Positions 21,795-28,996 of a stretch of 64,000 bases of DNA are shown piece after piece. Source of the stretch: Nocardioides kongjuensis (GTDB lineage: Bacteria > Actinomycetota > Actinomycetes > Propionibacteriales > Nocardioidaceae); contig NZ_JACCBF010000001.1 of NCBI RefSeq assembly GCF_013409625.1, positions 1,116,001 through 1,180,000 on the forward strand. Reading direction: 5' to 3'. Below the pieces are notes generated by a model. It was not told the DNA's origin and made no database searches. It saw only the letters and a list, made by a program, of their open reading frames with translations. Positions within the stretch are counted from its first letter, which is position 1. Each line of letters opens with the position of its first letter. A program made the position numbers and the translations under genes.

Positions 21795-22340
21795 ATGAAG
21801 AAGACGACGAAGGGCGCGCTCGCGGCAGGAACCGCAGCCGTCCTGCTCATGGGTGGTGCGGGCACCCTGGCCTACTGGACCGACAGCGACACCGTCACCG
21901 GGTCGAGCATCACGAGCGGCCACCTGAGCCTCGACGCCTCGGCGTGCCAGGGCACCACCGGCTGGCTGCTCGAGGGCGCTCCCTTCGACCCCTCGACCGG
22001 GACGCTGATCCCCGGCGACACGCTGAGCAAGACCTGCAACGCCGTGGTCAACGTGAAGGGCACCCACTTCACCCAGGTCGACATCCAGGCGACCGCGCCG
22101 AACGGCCCCGCCGCCGCCGCTCCGTGGGACGAGCTGACGGTCGCTGCGACGGTCAACGGCTCGACGACCGGCGCCAACAACGTCGCCGTCAGCCAGGGCG
22201 CCAACAACATCCCGGTCTCGATCACGGTCACCTGGCCGTACGGCCCCAGCGCCGACAACGACCTGAACGGCGACCTGACGACCGCGCTGGGCAACATCGC
22301 GATCACCGCTGTCCAGGACCACAAGGCCGACCCCAACTGA
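21795..22340 (+). CDS. Exported protein with alternate (SipW-type) signal peptide, substrate 1
   Basis: 181 aa. Lys-rich n-region (MKKTTK), hydrophobic stretch to about residue 25, then AYWTDSDTVTG at 26-36, the signature of alternate signal-mediated exported proteins of the RER_14450 type cleaved by SipW-like peptidases. The mature part is a beta-rich domain of about 145 residues with a single pair of cysteines and many Thr/Asn, no enzyme motif. TasA/CalY-like fibre or surface protein is a plausible role by analogy only. ATG 21795 follows CTGGAGATTCG, a fair ribosome site. It is the first gene of the cluster and is followed 13 bases later by its probable peptidase. Confidence 0.82.
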   Translation: MKKTTKGALAAGTAAVLLMGGAGTLAYWTDSDTVTGSSITSGHLSLDASACQGTTGWLLEGAPFDPSTGTLIPGDTLSKTCNAVVNVKGTHFTQVDIQATAPNGPAAAAPWDELTVAATVNGSTTGANNVAVSQGANNIPVSITVTWPYGPSADNDLNGDLTTALGNIAITAVQDHKADPN

Positions 22341-22353
22341 TCCACGCCGGCCG

Positions 22354-23082
22354 TTGTTCTCGTGGATCCGGCAGGTCGTCGCCTGGCTGGTGATCATCGG
22401 TGTGGTCGTCGTCCTGGCCGCCGCGGTCGTCGTACCGCGGCTCGCCGGGGCGACGCCCTACACAGTGCTCACCGGCTCGATGCGGCCGGACCGTCCGCCG
22501 GGAACGCTGGTCGTCGTCAGGCCGGTCGATCCCGACGACCTTGCGGTGGGGGACGTCGTCACCTACCAGCTCGAGTCCGGGGAGGCGACGGTGGTCACCC
22601 ACCGGATCGTCGCCATCGGGAACCAGCTGGACGGAGACCTGGTGCTCACCACGCAGGGCGACGCCAACGACGTGCCCGACCGGGAGCCGGTCAAGCCGGT
22701 CCAGGTCCGGGGACGGCTGTGGTACTCGATCCCGTACCTCGGCTACGTCAACAACGCCCTGAGCGGGAAGCAGCGTCAGGTCGCCGTGCTGGTCGTCTCG
22801 ACCGGCCTCGTCGGCTACGCCGCATTCATGTTCGTCGGTGCGGTCAGGGACCGGAGGCGGGGGCGGCTCGCTCCGGCATCCGGCGACGCAGCCGCCGACA
22901 CCCCTGACGACATCGAGATCACCGACAACACCGACGACATCACCGAGCCAGACGCGGTACCGGTCGCACGACCCGAACCGCACCAGCAGCGGGGCCTGCG
23001 TGGTCCGCTGCTCGCCGCGATCCTCGTCGTGGCGGCCGTGCTCCTCCTGCTCCGCCGCCACACCGGGCGCGGACGCGACTGA
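22354..23082 (+). CDS. SipW-type signal peptidase I (S26B), peptidase 1
   Basis: 242 aa. TM helix at about 8-27, then the catalytic Ser42 in TGSMRPDRPPG and, instead of the Lys of ordinary bacterial enzymes, His83 in VVTHRI; the GDANDVPD acidic motif follows. This Ser/His arrangement marks the ER/archaeal/SipW class that cleaves alternate signal peptides. A second TM lies at about 148-166 and a third at the C-terminus (about 222-236), separated by an acidic, disordered-looking linker. Start is TTG 22354 with no clear ribosome site; a GTG 36 bases later is possible but would cut the first helix. Its likely substrates are the upstream and downstream exported proteins. Confidence 0.86.
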   Translation: MFSWIRQVVAWLVIIGVVVVLAAAVVVPRLAGATPYTVLTGSMRPDRPPGTLVVVRPVDPDDLAVGDVVTYQLESGEATVVTHRIVAIGNQLDGDLVLTTQGDANDVPDREPVKPVQVRGRLWYSIPYLGYVNNALSGKQRQVAVLVVSTGLVGYAAFMFVGAVRDRRRGRLAPASGDAAADTPDDIEITDNTDDITEPDAVPVARPEPHQQRGLRGPLLAAILVVAAVLLLLRRHTGRGRD

Positions 23083-23101: not shown

Positions 23102-23761
23102 ATGATCCGCCGATTCGCCTCGCTGGTCGCCGCAGCCGTGCTGGCTGTCTGCGCGTCGGCTGCGCCGGCACGTGCGGACGGTGAGATCGGCCTGAGCAGC
23201 GACGGGGTCACCTGGGTACGCCAGCTGACCACGCCGCTGTACGACGCCGGCTTCGCCTGGGTCCCGGGTGACGTCGAGGAGCGCAGCTTCCGGGTCCGCA
23301 ACGACGGCCCTTCGGCGGGTGAGCTCACCGTCGACGTCGTCGCCGGCGATCCCCAGGCGTTCCTCGCCTCGCCCGACCTCCTGCTCGAGGCCCGGGTCGG
23401 CTCGGGCCCGTGGGTCGAGGTCGTGCCAGGCACGACGCACCTCCAGCCGGCTGTCCTGGACATCGCGAAGGGTGCCGACACCAGCGTCACCGTGCGCGGC
23501 ACCCTCCGCGCCGAGACGACGGGCCACATGGACGAGATCGCGCCGTTCGAGGTCCGCGTGACGATGTCCGAGGACGGCGACGTCGGTGGCCAGGAGGAGG
23601 GGGAGGACGACGGTGAGGTCAACGGCTCCGCGGCCCTGCCCGACACCGGAGGTCCCTTCGGCGTCGGCGTCATCTGGCTGGCCGCCGGTCTCGTCGGCGC
23701 CGGCATCGCCCTGGTGCGGCCCGGTCGCCGCCAGCGGACGGAGGTGGCCGACCGTGGCTAG
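23102..23761 (+). CDS. Cell-wall-anchored protein with LPDTG sorting signal
   Basis: 219 aa. Ordinary Sec signal peptide with ARA-D cleavage near residue 25, a beta-sandwich-like extracellular domain (about 27-155) with the strand pattern FRVRNDGPSAGELTVDV, an acidic linker (EDGD to EVNG), then LPDTG at 179-183, a hydrophobic segment (187-205) and a basic tail (RPGRRQR). This is a complete sortase sorting signal; no sortase gene lies in the window. AGGAAAGG precedes the ATG. Its stop overlaps the next gene by eight bases, so the anchored protein and an alternate-signal substrate are made together. A role as anchor for the secreted proteins is inferred. Confidence 0.85.
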   Translation: MIRRFASLVAAAVLAVCASAAPARADGEIGLSSDGVTWVRQLTTPLYDAGFAWVPGDVEERSFRVRNDGPSAGELTVDVVAGDPQAFLASPDLLLEARVGSGPWVEVVPGTTHLQPAVLDIAKGADTSVTVRGTLRAETTGHMDEIAPFEVRVTMSEDGDVGGQEEGEDDGEVNGSAALPDTGGPFGVGVIWLAAGLVGAGIALVRPGRRQRTEVADRG

Positions 23762-24356
23762 GCACGACGCGCGGCACCGCGCGGACCGCGCAGGATGGTT
23801 CGGTCAGGGCCGGACCAGGGCGTTGCTGTCCGCCGGCCTGCTGCTGGGGACGGGGGCGGTCGCGACCTCGGCGTACTGGACCGACCACGAGACCGTGACC
23901 GGCGCGCCGCTGCACAGCGGGTCCCTGCACGTCGACCTCGAGTCGAACTTCCGCGTGAAGCCCGAGACGATCAGCAACTGGGCGGACCTCAGCCTGGCCA
24001 ACCTGGTCGACGGCACCAGCCGCGCCGGGATCATGACGGTCAAGAACAACAGCCGTGGTCACGCGAAGCTGTCCTACCGGGTCCAGGCCGGCGCGACCAA
24101 CGCCCTCGGCGGGGCGCTCAAGCTCACCGTGCGGCGTGGCGGCACCGTCAGCAGCGGCACCTGCACCGGGGGCACCCTCATCGGCAGCGCCGGGGCGACG
24201 CTCAACGGCTTCAACCAGGCCATGGACCTCACGCTCACCCCCGGGCAGTCGCACGACCTCTGCCTCCAGGTCAGCCTGCCGGCCGGCTCGAACATCGCCC
24301 CCAGCGCGACCTCCACGGTGACCTTCACCTTCCCCGCCAAGCAGGAGCCGTCGTGA
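23754..24356 (+). CDS. Exported protein with alternate (SipW-type) signal peptide, substrate 2
   Basis: 200 aa. Basic n-region of about 22 residues, hydrophobic stretch (24-38), then AYWTDHETVTG at 40-50, almost the same motif as substrate 1. The mature domain is beta-rich with NNSRGHAKLSYRVQ and a C-terminal VTFTFPAKQEPS; two or three cysteines. GTG 23754 is set by GGAGGTGG just upstream and overlaps the LPDTG gene by eight bases. Its TGA overlaps the following ATG, so it is coupled to the peptidase-fusion gene. Not recognisable as an enzyme. Confidence 0.82.
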   Translation: MARHDARHRADRAGWFGQGRTRALLSAGLLLGTGAVATSAYWTDHETVTGAPLHSGSLHVDLESNFRVKPETISNWADLSLANLVDGTSRAGIMTVKNNSRGHAKLSYRVQAGATNALGGALKLTVRRGGTVSSGTCTGGTLIGSAGATLNGFNQAMDLTLTPGQSHDLCLQVSLPAGSNIAPSATSTVTFTFPAKQEPS

Positions 24357-25363
24357 TGTCCGGTACGAAGCGGGTCGCGCGCGAAGCGCTGCTGTGGGTC
24401 GGAGGAGCGCTCGGCGCGCTGTGCCTGCTCTCCCTCGTGGCCGGGTGGGCGCTCAGCATGACGCCCCTGGTCTTCTCCTCCGGCTCGATGAGCCCGGCGT
24501 ACGACGCCGGCGCGCTCGGCATCGCGCGCCAGGTCGACGCGGCCGACCTCGCCGTCGGCGACGTCGTCAGCGTCCACGACGACGCCGGCACCCGGGTCAC
24601 GCACCGCATCGTCGCGATCGAGGACCAGGGTGGGCGCGCCGTGCTCACCCTGCGCGGCGACGCGAACACCGTCCCGGACGTCCAGACCTACGCGGTCGCC
24701 TCGGCCGATCGGGTCGTCCTCGGCGTCCCCTACGCCGGCTACGTGCTCAATGCCGCCGCGAGCCCGTTCGGCCTCGCTGCCGCCGCCGTGCTGGCAGCGG
24801 GGGCGCTGCTGGCCGGGTTCGGCCGCGGGCGGCGCCTGGTCCCGGTCGGGCTCGTGGCGACGGTCGTCGCCGGCGTCGGGCTCGGTCTCACCGGGGTGAC
24901 GCCGTGGGCGTTCACGTCGGCGTACTGGACCGACTCGGCCAGCGCCACCGTCGCCGCCTCCACCCCGGCGGCGGTCACGCACCAGCAGCCGACCTGCACC
25001 TCGAACGAGGGGAGCGGACAGAACAAGCAGCAGGCGACGCTGACGTGGCCGTCGGTCGGGACGCAGTACGAGTACTACTGGGAGCTGTGGAAGGGGACGA
25101 GCCCCGGCGGCGCGCTGTACGCCACGAGTGCTCCGACCGGCTCCTCGAACCCGATCGGTCCGTCGAGCAGCGGCAGCACGGTCACCTTGACCTTCGGCGA
25201 GGTGATCGCCTCCGGCGGTGGCGGGAACGACAACTTCTACGTGAAGGTGTGGACCCGCCTGGCGAGCAACCACACCAACGTCGGCTCGCCGACGACGACC
25301 CTGCTGCACTCCGGACCGCGCCCCAACGGCCCGAACTGGTGGATGTACTGCGGCAGCGCCTGA
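24356..25363 (+). CDS. SipW-type signal peptidase fused to an internal alternate signal and secreted domain, peptidase 2
   Basis: 335 aa with two halves. Residues 1-155 are a signal peptidase of the S26B type: TM about 12-33, catalytic Ser44 in SSGSMSP, His83 in RVTHRI, GDANTVPD at 101-108, second TM about 138-155. Then RGRR (157-160), a third hydrophobic segment (161-180) and TSAYWTDSAS at 187-196, the same motif that ends the signal peptides of substrates 1 and 2, followed by a beta-rich domain of about 140 residues with two cysteines. Topology predicts that the motif and the last domain face outside, where the peptidase acts, so release of that domain by cleavage is likely (inference). No frameshift or stop separates the halves. 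Confidence 0.85.
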   Translation: MSGTKRVAREALLWVGGALGALCLLSLVAGWALSMTPLVFSSGSMSPAYDAGALGIARQVDAADLAVGDVVSVHDDAGTRVTHRIVAIEDQGGRAVLTLRGDANTVPDVQTYAVASADRVVLGVPYAGYVLNAAASPFGLAAAAVLAAGALLAGFGRGRRLVPVGLVATVVAGVGLGLTGVTPWAFTSAYWTDSASATVAASTPAAVTHQQPTCTSNEGSGQNKQQATLTWPSVGTQYEYYWELWKGTSPGGALYATSAPTGSSNPIGPSSSGSTVTLTFGEVIASGGGGNDNFYVKVWTRLASNHTNVGSPTTTLLHSGPRPNGPNWWMYCGSA

Positions 25364-25430: not shown

Positions 25431-26066
25431 ATGACCACCCCGCGTCCCCGTGACCGGCGGCGTCGCCGGAGCCTCGTGCTCGCCGCCGCGGGAGCGACGG
25501 CTGCGGTCATCCTGGTCCTCGGCATCAGCGGCACCCTGTCCAGCTGGACCAGTGCGATCATCACCAACGACGACAACACCGTCGAGGCGGCGCAGTCGCT
25601 GGTCCTGCAGGAGACCGGGCCCGGCAACGTCGTGTGCACCTCCACCGACGGAGGCGGGTCGGGCAACAGCGCCACGTGCTCGACGATCGACAAGTACGGC
25701 GGCACCGCCGTCCCGCTCGGTCCCGGTGACCACCAGACGGTGACCGTCAGCCTCGAGAACACCGGCACCGGGAGCGGCGCGCTGACGCTGGCGCCCGGCT
25801 CCTGCGTCACCTCGGCCGGCAGCCCGTCCGCGTCGGCCGACCTGTGCGACGTCGCCACGGTGACCGTCGCATGCACCACCCCGAGCACCGTCGACACGAC
25901 GGCCACCCCGGTCGCGTTGTCCGCGCTCGCCCAGCTGTCGGTCGTGACGACGCTGGCCGCGGGGGAGTCCACCGACTGCACCTTCGACGTCGCGCTGCCC
26001 GCCTCCGCCTCACCGCAGGTCGGTGGCCAGGTGGCGACCCAGCCGCTGGTCTGGACGCTGAGCTGA
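25431..26066 (+). CDS. Exported protein with alternate signal (SGTLSxWT class), substrate 3
   Basis: 211 aa. Very basic n-region (R at 5, 7, 9-13), hydrophobic stretch 15-31, then SGTLSSWTSAI at 33-43. This differs from the AYWTD class but keeps the Trp-Thr pair. The mature part has a cysteine motif, NSATCSTIDKYGGT, and beta-rich Ser/Thr-rich sequence ending in PLVWTLS. It is a paralogue of the next gene: the order of motifs and the C-terminal end match. No strong ribosome site precedes ATG 25431. Confidence 0.8.
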   Translation: MTTPRPRDRRRRRSLVLAAAGATAAVILVLGISGTLSSWTSAIITNDDNTVEAAQSLVLQETGPGNVVCTSTDGGGSGNSATCSTIDKYGGTAVPLGPGDHQTVTVSLENTGTGSGALTLAPGSCVTSAGSPSASADLCDVATVTVACTTPSTVDTTATPVALSALAQLSVVTTLAAGESTDCTFDVALPASASPQVGGQVATQPLVWTLS

Positions 26067-26076
26067 GGAGGCTCGC

Positions 26077-26775
26077 ATGGCATCGCACGCATCTCGCAGG
26101 CACGCCGACCGTCGACGTCTCCGTCCCGGCCCGAGGGGCCTCGTGCTCGGTGCCTGTGCGCTGGCCGCCGCGTTGCTCGGCCTGAGCGTCAGCGGCACGC
26201 TGTCCGACTGGACCAGCGCGATCATCTCCAACAGCACGAACACCGTCGCGAGCAGCACGGCGGTGATCCTGCAGGAGGTCGGTCCCGACGGGACCGTCGC
26301 GCACGCCTCGCAGACCTGCCGCTCGAGCGACGGCGCAGCGAACAGCGCGACCTGCACCACGATCAACAAGTACGGCGGCACCACCTCTCCGCTGAGCCCC
26401 GGCGGCAGCCAGGTCACCGACGTCGTGTTCACCAACCTCGGGGCGGCCAACGCGTCCAGCTTCGTGCTGACGCCCGGCACCTGCACGTCCACCCCGGCGA
26501 CCGGTACGCCGACGCCCAACAACCTCTGCACCACGGACCTCACGGTCGCGGTGAGCTGCTCGAACGGGTCGACGTACGCCGGCGGCTCGGCCTGGACCGA
26601 CCTCGTCTACCCGGCCGGAGCGGCCGCGAGCATGCCGACGCTGACCCACGCCGCAGGACTCGCCTCCGGCGCGTCCGCGACCTGCCGGTTCACCGTCGCG
26701 CTGCCCGCCAACGCCTCGGTGCTCGACCAGGGGCTGACAGTGAGCCACCCCTTGAGCTGGACGCTGAACAAGTGA
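26077..26775 (+). CDS. Exported protein with alternate signal (SGTLSxWT class), substrate 4
   Basis: 232 aa. Basic n-region, hydrophobic stretch 21-38, SGTLSDWTSAI at 39-49. Shared with substrate 3: NSATCTTINKYGGT, a VILQEVGP segment after the signal, a CRFTVALPA strand and the ending PLSWTLNK, so the pair arose by duplication. GAGGAG is seven bases before ATG 26077. The GTGA overlap couples it to substrate 5. Function not recognisable; secreted and probably disulphide-containing. Confidence 0.82.
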   Translation: MASHASRRHADRRRLRPGPRGLVLGACALAAALLGLSVSGTLSDWTSAIISNSTNTVASSTAVILQEVGPDGTVAHASQTCRSSDGAANSATCTTINKYGGTTSPLSPGGSQVTDVVFTNLGAANASSFVLTPGTCTSTPATGTPTPNNLCTTDLTVAVSCSNGSTYAGGSAWTDLVYPAGAAASMPTLTHAAGLASGASATCRFTVALPANASVLDQGLTVSHPLSWTLNK

Positions 26776-28151
26776 CCCGGCCGGGCCGGTGGACGCTCCT
26801 CGTCGGGGGAGTCGCGCTGCTCGGCCTGGTCGCAGGGACGTCGGGCACCCTGTCCGGCTGGACCGTCGGGTCGGTCGCCAACGACACGGACACCACCGCC
26901 GTCGGCTCCCTGTCGGTCACCCACGCCTACGGCGCGACGACCTGCACGGGTGGGCCGCGGACGGCCTCCGTGACCTGCAGCCCGACCCTCACCCCGGCAG
27001 CGGGCGCCCCGGCCAGCAGCACCGACGCGATCACCAACAGCAGCGGCCGCGCGATCACGCAGAGCCTGACCGCCGCGTCCTGCGCGCCCGTGCGCCACAC
27101 CAACACCCAGCAGGCGAGCGACCCGATGCTGCCCCGCAACAGCGTCGCCTTCCGGCAGGCCGACCCGTGGGGGACGACGGCGGCTGCGACATTCAGCGGC
27201 TCCGGGTACGCGACCGACATCGTCGGCACCAACGGCTCGGGACTGCTCGGGCTGCTGTCCAACAGCTACAGCATCGGCGTCTGGTTCAAGGCCGCGGACA
27301 GCCAGGGGGGCGGCCTGTTCAGCCTCGACGCCAGCCTGTCGAACGCGACCTCCGCGACCGGCAACCCGATGGTCTGGCTCGACACCACCGGGCACGTGGG
27401 CTTCTCGGCCAACGGCACCCTCGGCCTCAACATCACCGGGTCCAGCCCGGCGTCGTACGGCTCCGGCTGGCACCTCGCCGTCCTCACCGTCGACACCACC
27501 GGCGTGATCACGCTGACCAAGACCGTGAAGCTGTACGTCGACGGGGCCCTCGTGGCATCGGGCTCCGGCCTCACCCTGCTGACCAGCACGACCGGCTACT
27601 GGCACCTGGGCTGGGCCGACTTCACCGGCCTCACCGCGCCGACCTCGACCTACTTCCACGGCTCGCTCGCCGGCGCCTTCGTCAACCAGAGCACCGCACT
27701 CAGCGCGGCGACCGTGTCGTCCCTGCACACGGCCGCATCGGCGAACGCGTACCGCACCACCGCGTCGGGGCTCAGCGGGACCGCGTCGCTGTGGATGCTG
27801 GACGACGACGGCGTCACGACGTACGCCGGCGCCCTGCCGGGCGTCATGGCGAACCCGTGCAGCCAGGTCAACGTCGGCCTCACCTTCACCAACCCGGCGG
27901 CCAGCGTCGCGTCGACCAGCCTCACCAACCTGGTCGCGCCCGGCAACAACCCCCGCACCGTCGCGGCGCCCGCGGCCGGCCAGACCCAGGGGCTGACACT
28001 CAGCACCACCCGCGGCGCGGGCTACAGCACCGACATCACCGGGCTGAGGCTCTACGTCCCGCTGACCTTCACCTACGGCACCAGCCCCGCCACCGGGTGG
28101 ACGATGGCGCTGCAGTGGAGCGGGGACCCGGGGGACGTGTTCCTGGCATGA
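26772..28151 (+). CDS. Large exported protein with alternate signal and LamG-like domain, substrate 5
   Basis: 459 aa. Short n-region, hydrophobic stretch 8-22, SGTLSGWT at 24-31. Residues about 130-300 read as a concanavalin A/LamG-type jelly roll: YSIGVWFKAADSQGG, GWHLAVLTVD, KLYVDGALVASG and STYFHGSLAGAFV, a fold that binds sugars or proteins. N- and C-terminal parts are Thr/Ser-rich beta sequence, with NPCSQVNVGLTFTNPA resembling the repeats of other cluster members. GTG overlaps the previous stop (GTGA), and its own stop overlaps peptidase 3 (ATGA). Confidence 0.8.
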   Translation: MTRPGRWTLLVGGVALLGLVAGTSGTLSGWTVGSVANDTDTTAVGSLSVTHAYGATTCTGGPRTASVTCSPTLTPAAGAPASSTDAITNSSGRAITQSLTAASCAPVRHTNTQQASDPMLPRNSVAFRQADPWGTTAAATFSGSGYATDIVGTNGSGLLGLLSNSYSIGVWFKAADSQGGGLFSLDASLSNATSATGNPMVWLDTTGHVGFSANGTLGLNITGSSPASYGSGWHLAVLTVDTTGVITLTKTVKLYVDGALVASGSGLTLLTSTTGYWHLGWADFTGLTAPTSTYFHGSLAGAFVNQSTALSAATVSSLHTAASANAYRTTASGLSGTASLWMLDDDGVTTYAGALPGVMANPCSQVNVGLTFTNPAASVASTSLTNLVAPGNNPRTVAAPAAGQTQGLTLSTTRGAGYSTDITGLRLYVPLTFTYGTSPATGWTMALQWSGDPGDVFLA

Positions 28152-28996
28152 ACGCCCGCCGCCTGCTCCTCGCGCTGCACTGGTCGCTGCTGGCCGTGCT
28201 GGTGGCAGGGGTGGTCGTGGCCGGGGCCTGGCGGCTGGGCGGCGGACGGTGGGAGCGGGTCGAGACCGCGTCGATGGGCACCGTCGCGCCGGTCAACACG
28301 CTGCTGTGGGTCGAGCCCGTCGACGCTGCCTCGCTGCGGGTGGGGGACTTCGTCACCTTCCACCCGCCCGGGCACGACGAGGTCAGCTACAGCCACCGGA
28401 TCGCCGCGGTCCACCCGGACGGCACCTTCGAGACCCAGGGCGAGATCACCGCCCCCGACCCGTGGCGGCTCAGTGCCGACGACCTGGTCGGACGGGTCGT
28501 GATGCGCTGGTACGGCGTCGGCTGGCTGGTCGTCGCCGCTCCCGTGCTCCTCGCCGGCGGGCTGCTGGTCTGGCTCGTCGTGGCCTCGCTCCGCGACCGC
28601 TCGTGGCGCCTGCCCGTCGCCATCGTCGGCACCGCGCTCGTCCTGAGCGTCGCGATCGTCGTGCACCGGCCGCTGGTGCGGGCCCAGCAGCTCGGGTTCG
28701 GCGAGGTGCCGGGCGGTGCGCGGGCGACGTACGTCTCCACCGGGCTGGCCCCGGTCCGGCTCCAGGCCCACCGCGGCCCCCACGTCGACCTGCGCGACGG
28801 CGAGGTGGGATCCGTGCTCATCACGCACCGCGACCACGAGGGCCGCTACGGCATCTCGATGAGCCCGCGGATCCCGCCGTGGTGGTGGATCGTGCTCGTC
28901 GCGGCCTGCTTCCTGCCCTCGCTGGCGAGCCTCGCGAGGCCCGGCCCTAGGATCGGTGCCCATGCCCTCGATCGGAGTCTTCGCGCTGCAAGGTGA
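28148..28996 (+). CDS. Divergent SipW-type signal peptidase, peptidase 3
   Basis: 282 aa. TM about 8-27, Ser42 in TASMGTVAP and His83 in YSHRIAAV, at the same spacing as the other two peptidases. It lacks the proline of SMxP and has GEITAPDPW where the others have GDANxxPD, so the acidic catalytic residue is Glu or has moved. Two more TMs (about 127-147, 155-175) are followed by an extra domain of about 80 residues and a C-terminal TM (about 252-270). Last gene of the cluster; its last 35 bases overlap pdxT in another frame. Whether it is active is open. Confidence 0.75.
28948..28953 (+). promoter_or_regulatory. -10 hexamer TAGGAT of a leaderless promoter inside the peptidase 3 gene
   Basis: Eight bases before ATG 28962 of pdxT; gives pdxT its own promoter although it overlaps the cluster's last gene. 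Confidence 0.5.

Follow-up and report, generated by a model that had tools for sequence, protein, structure and literature searches.

A SipW-type signal peptidase fused to a probable substrate with exchangeable cargo in Nocardioides kongjuensis and other actinobacteria

The window analysed here is a stretch of 64,000 nucleotides of the Nocardioides kongjuensis genome (RefSeq assembly GCF_013409625.1, contig NZ_JACCBF010000001.1, positions 1,116,001 to 1,180,000), and it holds a cluster of signal peptidases and putative substrates in which one gene joins an enzyme of this kind to a signal-peptide-like helix and a beta domain (Table 1).

Table 1. Coordinates in the window of the fused gene, its parts and the genes around it
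Feature	Position	Strand	Remarks
Substrate 1, alternate-type signal peptide protein (TLA^YWTD)	21795..22340	+	TIGR04089 111.7 bits (cut-off 60); TIGR04088 37.2 bits
SP1, unfused SipW-type signal peptidase	22354..23082	+	TIGR02228 95 bits
Putative secreted protein, LPDTGG and C-terminal hydrophobic tail (sortase-type sorting signal)	23102..23761	+	NF058582 19.1 bits, under cut-off 27
Substrate 2, separate SipW-type substrate (TSA^YWTD)	23754..24356	+	TIGR04088 27.4 bits (cut-off 19)
Fused gene: SipW-type signal peptidase, signal-peptide-like third helix, secreted beta domain	24356..25363	+	335 aa, ATG start
Signal peptidase part, residues 1-155	24356..24820	+	TM1 3-32, TM2 137-155
Catalytic Ser44	24485-24487	+	in peptidase part
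Catalytic His83	24602-24604	+	in peptidase part
GDAN 101-104	24656-24667	+	in peptidase part
Signal-peptide-like segment	24824..24901	+	RGRR 157-160 (cytoplasmic side), hydrophobic helix residues ~162-182
TSAYWTD (187-193)	24914..24934	+	predicted cut after Ala189, between 24922 and 24923
Predicted released cargo, residues 190-335 (146 residues)	24923..25360	+	fibronectin-III/Ig-like beta sandwich, Cys214 and Cys332
Three genes, N-terminal hydrophobic segments ending TLS-x-WT	25431-26066, 26077-26775, 26772-28151	+	last with Laminin_G_3 domain
SP3, third, divergent S26-type peptidase of the cluster	28148..28996	+	TIGR02228 30.4 bits, under cut-off

Translation of the open reading frame placed Ser44, His83, GDAN, RGRR, the hydrophobic segment and TSAYWTDSAS (187-196) where a preliminary description of this DNA had put them, and the cysteine-containing C-terminal domain it had reported was recovered with both cysteines. 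Residues 18-147 were matched by the NCBIfam model TIGR02228 (signal peptidase I, sigpep_I_arch) with 67.8 bits against a cut-off of 51.85, and the protein scored 61.4 bits with NF046067, the Bacillus SipW equivalog model, below its cut-off of 190; the enzyme is not a Bacillus SipW equivalog, and judging by its sequence it may work in a SipW-like manner. Pfam gave nothing for the fused protein, and the model of the SipW-dependent signal peptide, TIGR04088, had no match in it at E <= 10; across the whole genome this model found, besides substrates 1 and 2, only a weak match at 25494-25553 of the window. In a sequence search of the PDB, the enzyme half matched SEC11A (E 0.0078), and the cargo gave weak matches to antibody domains (best E 0.0014), which we read as composition and a generic beta sandwich. 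The AlphaFold2 model has helices at 3-32, 137-155 and 164-178, a low-confidence stretch at 180-203 that includes the motif, and then a beta domain (mean pLDDT 73); owing to its middling confidence and the disorder around the motif, it is uninformative on the reach of the active site in cis. The only reliable Foldseek match of the whole model was SEC11C (rank 2, E 1.2e-3; the match at rank 1 had a TM of 0.19), and VIA-align of the modelled cargo returned FnIII/Ig-like domains, a common arrangement that names no function.

The stop codon of substrate 2 overlaps the start codon of the fusion by 1 nt, and in a Foldseek search with the model of substrate 2 the TasA fibre was the best match, which is suggestive of a TasA-like predicted fold. 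The order substrate 1, SP1, LPxTG-type gene, substrate 2 and fusion was complete at 18 of 21 loci (21 of the 80 genome loci described below), and most of the related clusters among these 21 keep the LPDTGG protein, a possible wall-anchored partner by its sequence. Four Aeromicrobium loci (L018, L019, L021 and L024) repeat in tandem much of the module made of substrate 1, SP1, substrate 2 and the fusion. Downstream of the fusion, the three successive genes of secreted type adjoining SP3 carry a variant signal, TLS-S/D/G-WT, instead of TxA-x-WTD, and together with SP3 their sequences would perhaps form a second enzyme-substrate pairing with a site of its own. Elsewhere in the genome, two LepB-type enzymes score above the cut-off of TIGR02227.

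The motif TSAYWTD is letter-identical in substrate 2, directly upstream of the fusion, and AYWTD is shared with the TLAYWTD of substrate 1. Codon patterns for AYWTD occur four times in the 5.67-Mb genome (a control pattern, once), three of them within about 3 kb inside the cluster and the fourth in an open reading frame that, by eye, has no hydrophobic stretch just before the motif. Among 33 aligned fused homologues, which were chosen for diversity from the hits of the homologue search after the motif list had been viewed, Ser44, His83, G101, D102, N104, T187, A189 and D193 do not vary, and conservation of Cys214 and Cys332 is at least 90%; a more diverged set of 24 members, drawn from several families, keeps Ser, His and P1 Ala invariant but not T and D. 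P2 and P1' vary among the fused homologues, and such variation beside invariant P3 Thr, P1 Ala and P4' Asp in the 33 members amounts to the pattern of a cleavage site.

A larger sample comprised 168 homologues, that is, 88 proteins (the window's own included) and 80 genome loci, which are partly redundant and not independent, because the rows are related and some loci duplicate a database protein. We counted a homologue as fused if at least 60 residues come after a third hydrophobic helix, which gave 130 (P0088, a doubtful member, was kept among them); the share of fused forms among the 80 loci is no guide to that in nature, since these were found with patterns from the fusion alignment. Each of the 130 was scored for T(-3) A(-1) [WF](+2) D(+4) over a 30-residue stretch spanning the end of helix 3; 111 had the full T-x-A^x-[WF]-x-D, against none of 627 controls of equal length taken from the domains downstream. 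Four Rhodococcus loci (L047, L069, L070 and L082) scored 4 or less and have, by eye, ALA^APL instead of the motif. A profile search with the diverged members yielded a second set of 118 new proteins among the matches listed (120 of 491), 116 of them fused, with the full motif in 66 of the 116 (0/784 controls), P1 Ala in 113 and P4' Asp in 105. Moreover, two of the ten proteins scanned, P0070 and P0072, lie above the cut-offs of both TIGR02228 and TIGR04088, the latter matching internally with 27.7 bits (218-249) and 24.6 bits (219-250), respectively, against a cut-off of 19, so that NCBI's own models mark an enzyme and its cognate signal in one chain; P0069 reached 10.8 bits, below the cut-off, the other seven had no match, and at E <= 1 the model matched 3 of the 33 aligned members.

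Beyond the scored positions, P6' and P8' (mostly Ala, some Val) reached 2.99 and 2.82 bits, more than most positions nearby and in an alternating pattern, in 73 non-redundant sequences of 125 members; as membership of this set required a motif score of 6 or more, its values for P3, P1, P2' and P4' are inflated and the alignments of 33 and 24 members are the fairer guide to those. As speculation, the conservation of P6' and P8' would fit a working mature N-terminus. In TasA, it is residues 28-38 that come straight after the SipW cut. In the alignments of 33 and 24 members, most cargos, even dissimilar ones, have a Cys about 25 residues after the cut and another near the C-terminus, and the sequences suggest a shared disulfide closing the exchanged module.

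That the cargo is exchanged emerged when identities before and after a point 17 residues past the cut were compared among 77 fused database proteins. Ten pairs are at least 90% identical up to that point, and four of the ten are only 29-45% identical beyond it, among them P0030/P0031 (99% before, 29% after), P0033/P0037 (98% and 30%) and P0003/P0010 (98% and 45%, where identity drops about 25 residues after the cut); P0032/P0061 present the reverse case, with 61% before and 90% after. By these identities, the cargo is an exchanged module: enzymes that are nearly identical continue into different cargos after the motif. Silent cassettes of cargo in the organism's own genome were considered as the source of such modules and rejected, the cargo domain matching only once in the genome.

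The search for the same fusion in other actinobacterial genomes, which the preliminary description had called for, showed it to recur in several genera: named records cover Nocardioides, Pimelobacter, Aeromicrobium, Rhodococcus, Arthrobacter, Glutamicibacter, Frigoribacterium, Rathayibacter and Curtobacterium. The databases name these homologues mostly signal peptidase I and sometimes hypothetical protein, and the fused proteins range from about 300 to 680 residues, with cargos of one domain to several. In the host's family, 178 of 294 genomes have a match at E <= 0.001, and the match extends past residue 193 in at least 59 of the 294, the organism's own included, a lower bound counted by hand from the rows listed, with in-frame stops in such a match in G083 and G227. 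The fused architecture described earlier stands, whereas the cargo is not one fixed domain and the arrangement is not confined to this genome. In a Frondihabitans locus (L074), the C-terminal part seems to be out of frame after about residue 150, by a sequencing error or in a decayed gene.

A split form exists as well. A search for further copies of the cargo domain around the loci revealed 12 unfused loci with a downstream homologue of that domain (E <= 1e-4), and unfused peptidases with a cargo-homologue gene just downstream are found in Gordonia, Tomitella, Speluncibacter, Dietzia, some Rhodococcus and one Avipropionibacterium bin. In 10 of 11 split loci (L051, under the E cut-off, is included, and some have alternative starts), an in-frame start in the +1 frame overlaps the peptidase stop by 8 nt, often after AGGAGG, and these overlapping genes for enzyme and cargo are probably coupled. 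The N-terminus of the separate cargo proteins is charged and leads into a hydrophobic stretch and T-x-A, and in BLASTP eight of the 11 align, from a point within their first 11 residues, onto a fused protein, beginning at about the start of helix 3 and continuing past the motif into the domain (3e-29 at best). Helix 3 is, by this alignment, the counterpart of the neighbouring substrate's signal peptide, and the boundary between helices 2 and 3 is a gene boundary elsewhere, at the very place where the preliminary description had set the junction. That description had also named a case that would speak against the fusion, with the two halves occurring only as separate genes and a sequencing error here; the fusion proved to be common, the split form existing beside it.

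An aromatic residue at P2' is present in 120 of the 130 and 98 of the 116 fused members and missing in 10 and 18, many of them Rhodococcus. It is also absent from all 11 split cargos (L029, L037, L040, L041, L044, L048, L050, L051, L059, L064 and L068), whereas the separate substrate 2 keeps its Trp; being dispensed with in some fused members and in these 11 split cargos, an aromatic P2' is not strictly needed. Four other Rhodococcus loci (L045, L055, L057 and L062) have an unfused peptidase of the clade, then a gene like substrate 2 and then a second, fused-looking peptidase. A quick tree was built from 96 peptidase domains, two of them from genes of the window and the others selected among the 168 homologues. 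In it, the split forms are interspersed among the fused ones, with five changes of the label "fused", and with only 20 of 93 inner branches starred, the low support does not separate fusion first from splitting first.

The sequences show the fused architecture, a conserved pattern of cleavage, split relatives and an exchange of cargo, and on these grounds we consider it probable that the gene encodes a SipW-type signal peptidase fused to its substrate and that the chain is cut after Ala189, most likely by the fused family's own active site. The fused gene would unite such a peptidase with the substrate gene that adjoins it in some relatives. Helices 1 and 2 would hold the catalytic domain outside the membrane, and helix 3, joined to them by a short cytoplasmic loop with positive charge, would pass back into the membrane and export the cargo, acting as an internal signal peptide, as the topology and the homology to separate signal peptides suggest. 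Given the conserved site, the chain would then be cut after Ala189 (TSA^YWTD) by the Ser-His active site of SipW type, and since the catalytic residues are kept and the split genes occur in the same pairs, the cutter would most likely be the family's own, acting in cis or between neighbouring copies; the invariance of Ser and His in the 33 and 24 fused members indicates that the enzyme half is maintained. Cleavage would release a beta domain, probably with a disulfide, and leave behind a two-helix signal peptidase with a remnant helix, and we infer for the cargo a role at the cell surface or in the matrix, by analogy with tapA-sipW-tasA and sipW-bsaA, as a protein made with substrate 2, itself perhaps TasA-like. 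The topological argument of the preliminary description and the likeness it saw to a SipW-type cleavage site are both borne out.

The site could, however, be real and the cutter be SP1 or one of the two LepB-type enzymes, the fusion serving only to couple the amounts of enzyme and cargo, a reading that we hold to be rather unlikely. SP1 is itself of SipW type and lies 1.3 kb upstream, substrate 1 beside it shares AYWTD, and in Bacillus subtilis SipW serves both TasA and TapA (PMC9674648). Nevertheless, the catalytic residues of the fused enzymes are invariant, it is substrate 2 and not substrate 1 that adjoins the fusion, and the overlap of the probably coupled genes in the split loci also argues for the family's own enzyme. 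In addition, the motifs of substrate 2 and of the fusion are more alike in their pairs than after shuffling (4.59 vs 4.00 of 7, 0/5000 shuffles as high, in the 44 of 49 loci that gave a pair, four fused loci with a motif score below 6 having been dropped beforehand), weak evidence, as shared ancestry inflates it and the automatic choice of the upstream motif is visibly wrong in some rows. The housekeeping LepB-type enzymes seem to us the less likely cutters. According to one study, LepB cuts substrates with an aromatic P2' inefficiently, none of 143 verified LepB substrates has one, and TasA, whose P2' is Phe, is processed by SipW but poorly by LepB, for which the Trp at its P2 is blamed (PMC10269814); as P2 is Ser here, the LepB-type enzymes are still candidates.

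Two further readings concern what becomes of the domain and what the motif is for. It is quite improbable, in our judgement, that the C-terminal domain stays attached, anchored by helix 3, and steers or regulates the peptidase, the motif being a relic. A second role beyond cleavage has been reported for B. subtilis SipW, and cutting of the present protein is itself deduced from sequence; yet a relic hardly fits a P1 Ala invariant across families and T, A and D invariant in 33 members while the cargo is exchanged, and separate cargo genes with signal-peptide-like N-termini of their own exist. It is likewise unlikely, if a little less so, that conservation of the motif serves the mature N-terminus, as a donor strand for fibre assembly, and not the protease. 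In TasA, residues 28-38 form the donor strand of the fibre (PMC9674648); the alternating conservation of P6' and P8' and the perhaps TasA-like predicted fold of substrate 2 point the same way, but the fused cargo resembles FnIII/Ig domains and no filament is known, and a donor strand is compatible with cleavage, adding to it rather than replacing it. An artefact of assembly or gene calling, including a local frameshift or sequencing error, was rejected, its likelihood being practically nil: the split form in related genera would speak for it, but the host genome is a single contig, and more than 100 fused homologues come from many genomes and metagenomes, on contigs of up to several megabases.

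The usual picture of a signal peptidase is of an enzyme with many other proteins as its substrates. In the open-access literature, which leaves subscription journals mostly outside, we found no description of such a fusion or of such self-cutting, and a secretory enzyme with its own exchangeable cargo is, as far as could be seen, undescribed. A design that related soil bacteria conserve while the attached protein is exchanged looks, from the sequences, like a self-releasing export device. More tentatively, one might see here an undescribed actinobacterial class of self-releasing secretion, in which helix 3 would be the cargo's signal peptide, the protein would cut itself, each cargo molecule being made with a protease of its own, the cargo would be swapped by recombination near the cut, and the freed N-terminal strand would assemble with the TasA-like substrate into a surface fibre; in this full form the proposal is possible rather than probable. 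A widespread family that carries its substrate offers a one-gene system for Ser-His cutting in cis or in trans and for the role of an aromatic P2', and it may be an actinobacterial equivalent of the TasA/SipW matrix system, mostly listed as "signal peptidase I" and with interchangeable cargo.

The idea of self-cutting is not alien to these enzymes, as LexA and lambda CI, of the same LexA/signal-peptidase superfamily, cut their own chains (PMC12984324); for the fusion this would follow from the motif, and those proteins differ in being Ser-Lys repressors (RecA promoting the self-cut of CI) and neither membrane enzymes nor bearers of a secreted cargo. With the families of TIGR04088 and TIGR04089 the cluster shares substrate 1, above both cut-offs, and substrate 2, above that of TIGR04088, which P0070 and P0072 exceed internally; however, substrates 1 and 2 are separate proteins with an N-terminal signal, and the fusion of the window falls below the model. 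In sipW-bsaA of Clostridium perfringens, SipW is needed for an extracellular polymer protein encoded alongside it, but the genes are separate and the accessible text describes no fusion (PMC7395162). There is also a likeness to tapA-sipW-tasA of B. subtilis, where a signal peptidase of the Ser-His type also stands beside its substrates, TasA and TapA, TasA having Phe at the P2' where Trp or Phe stands in the fusion family, and the predicted fold of substrate 2 being perhaps TasA-like. There, however, SipW, an enzyme of ER type, is a separate protein, whereas here the enzyme and one substrate form a single chain, whose cargo is an FnIII/Ig-like domain exchanged between relatives.
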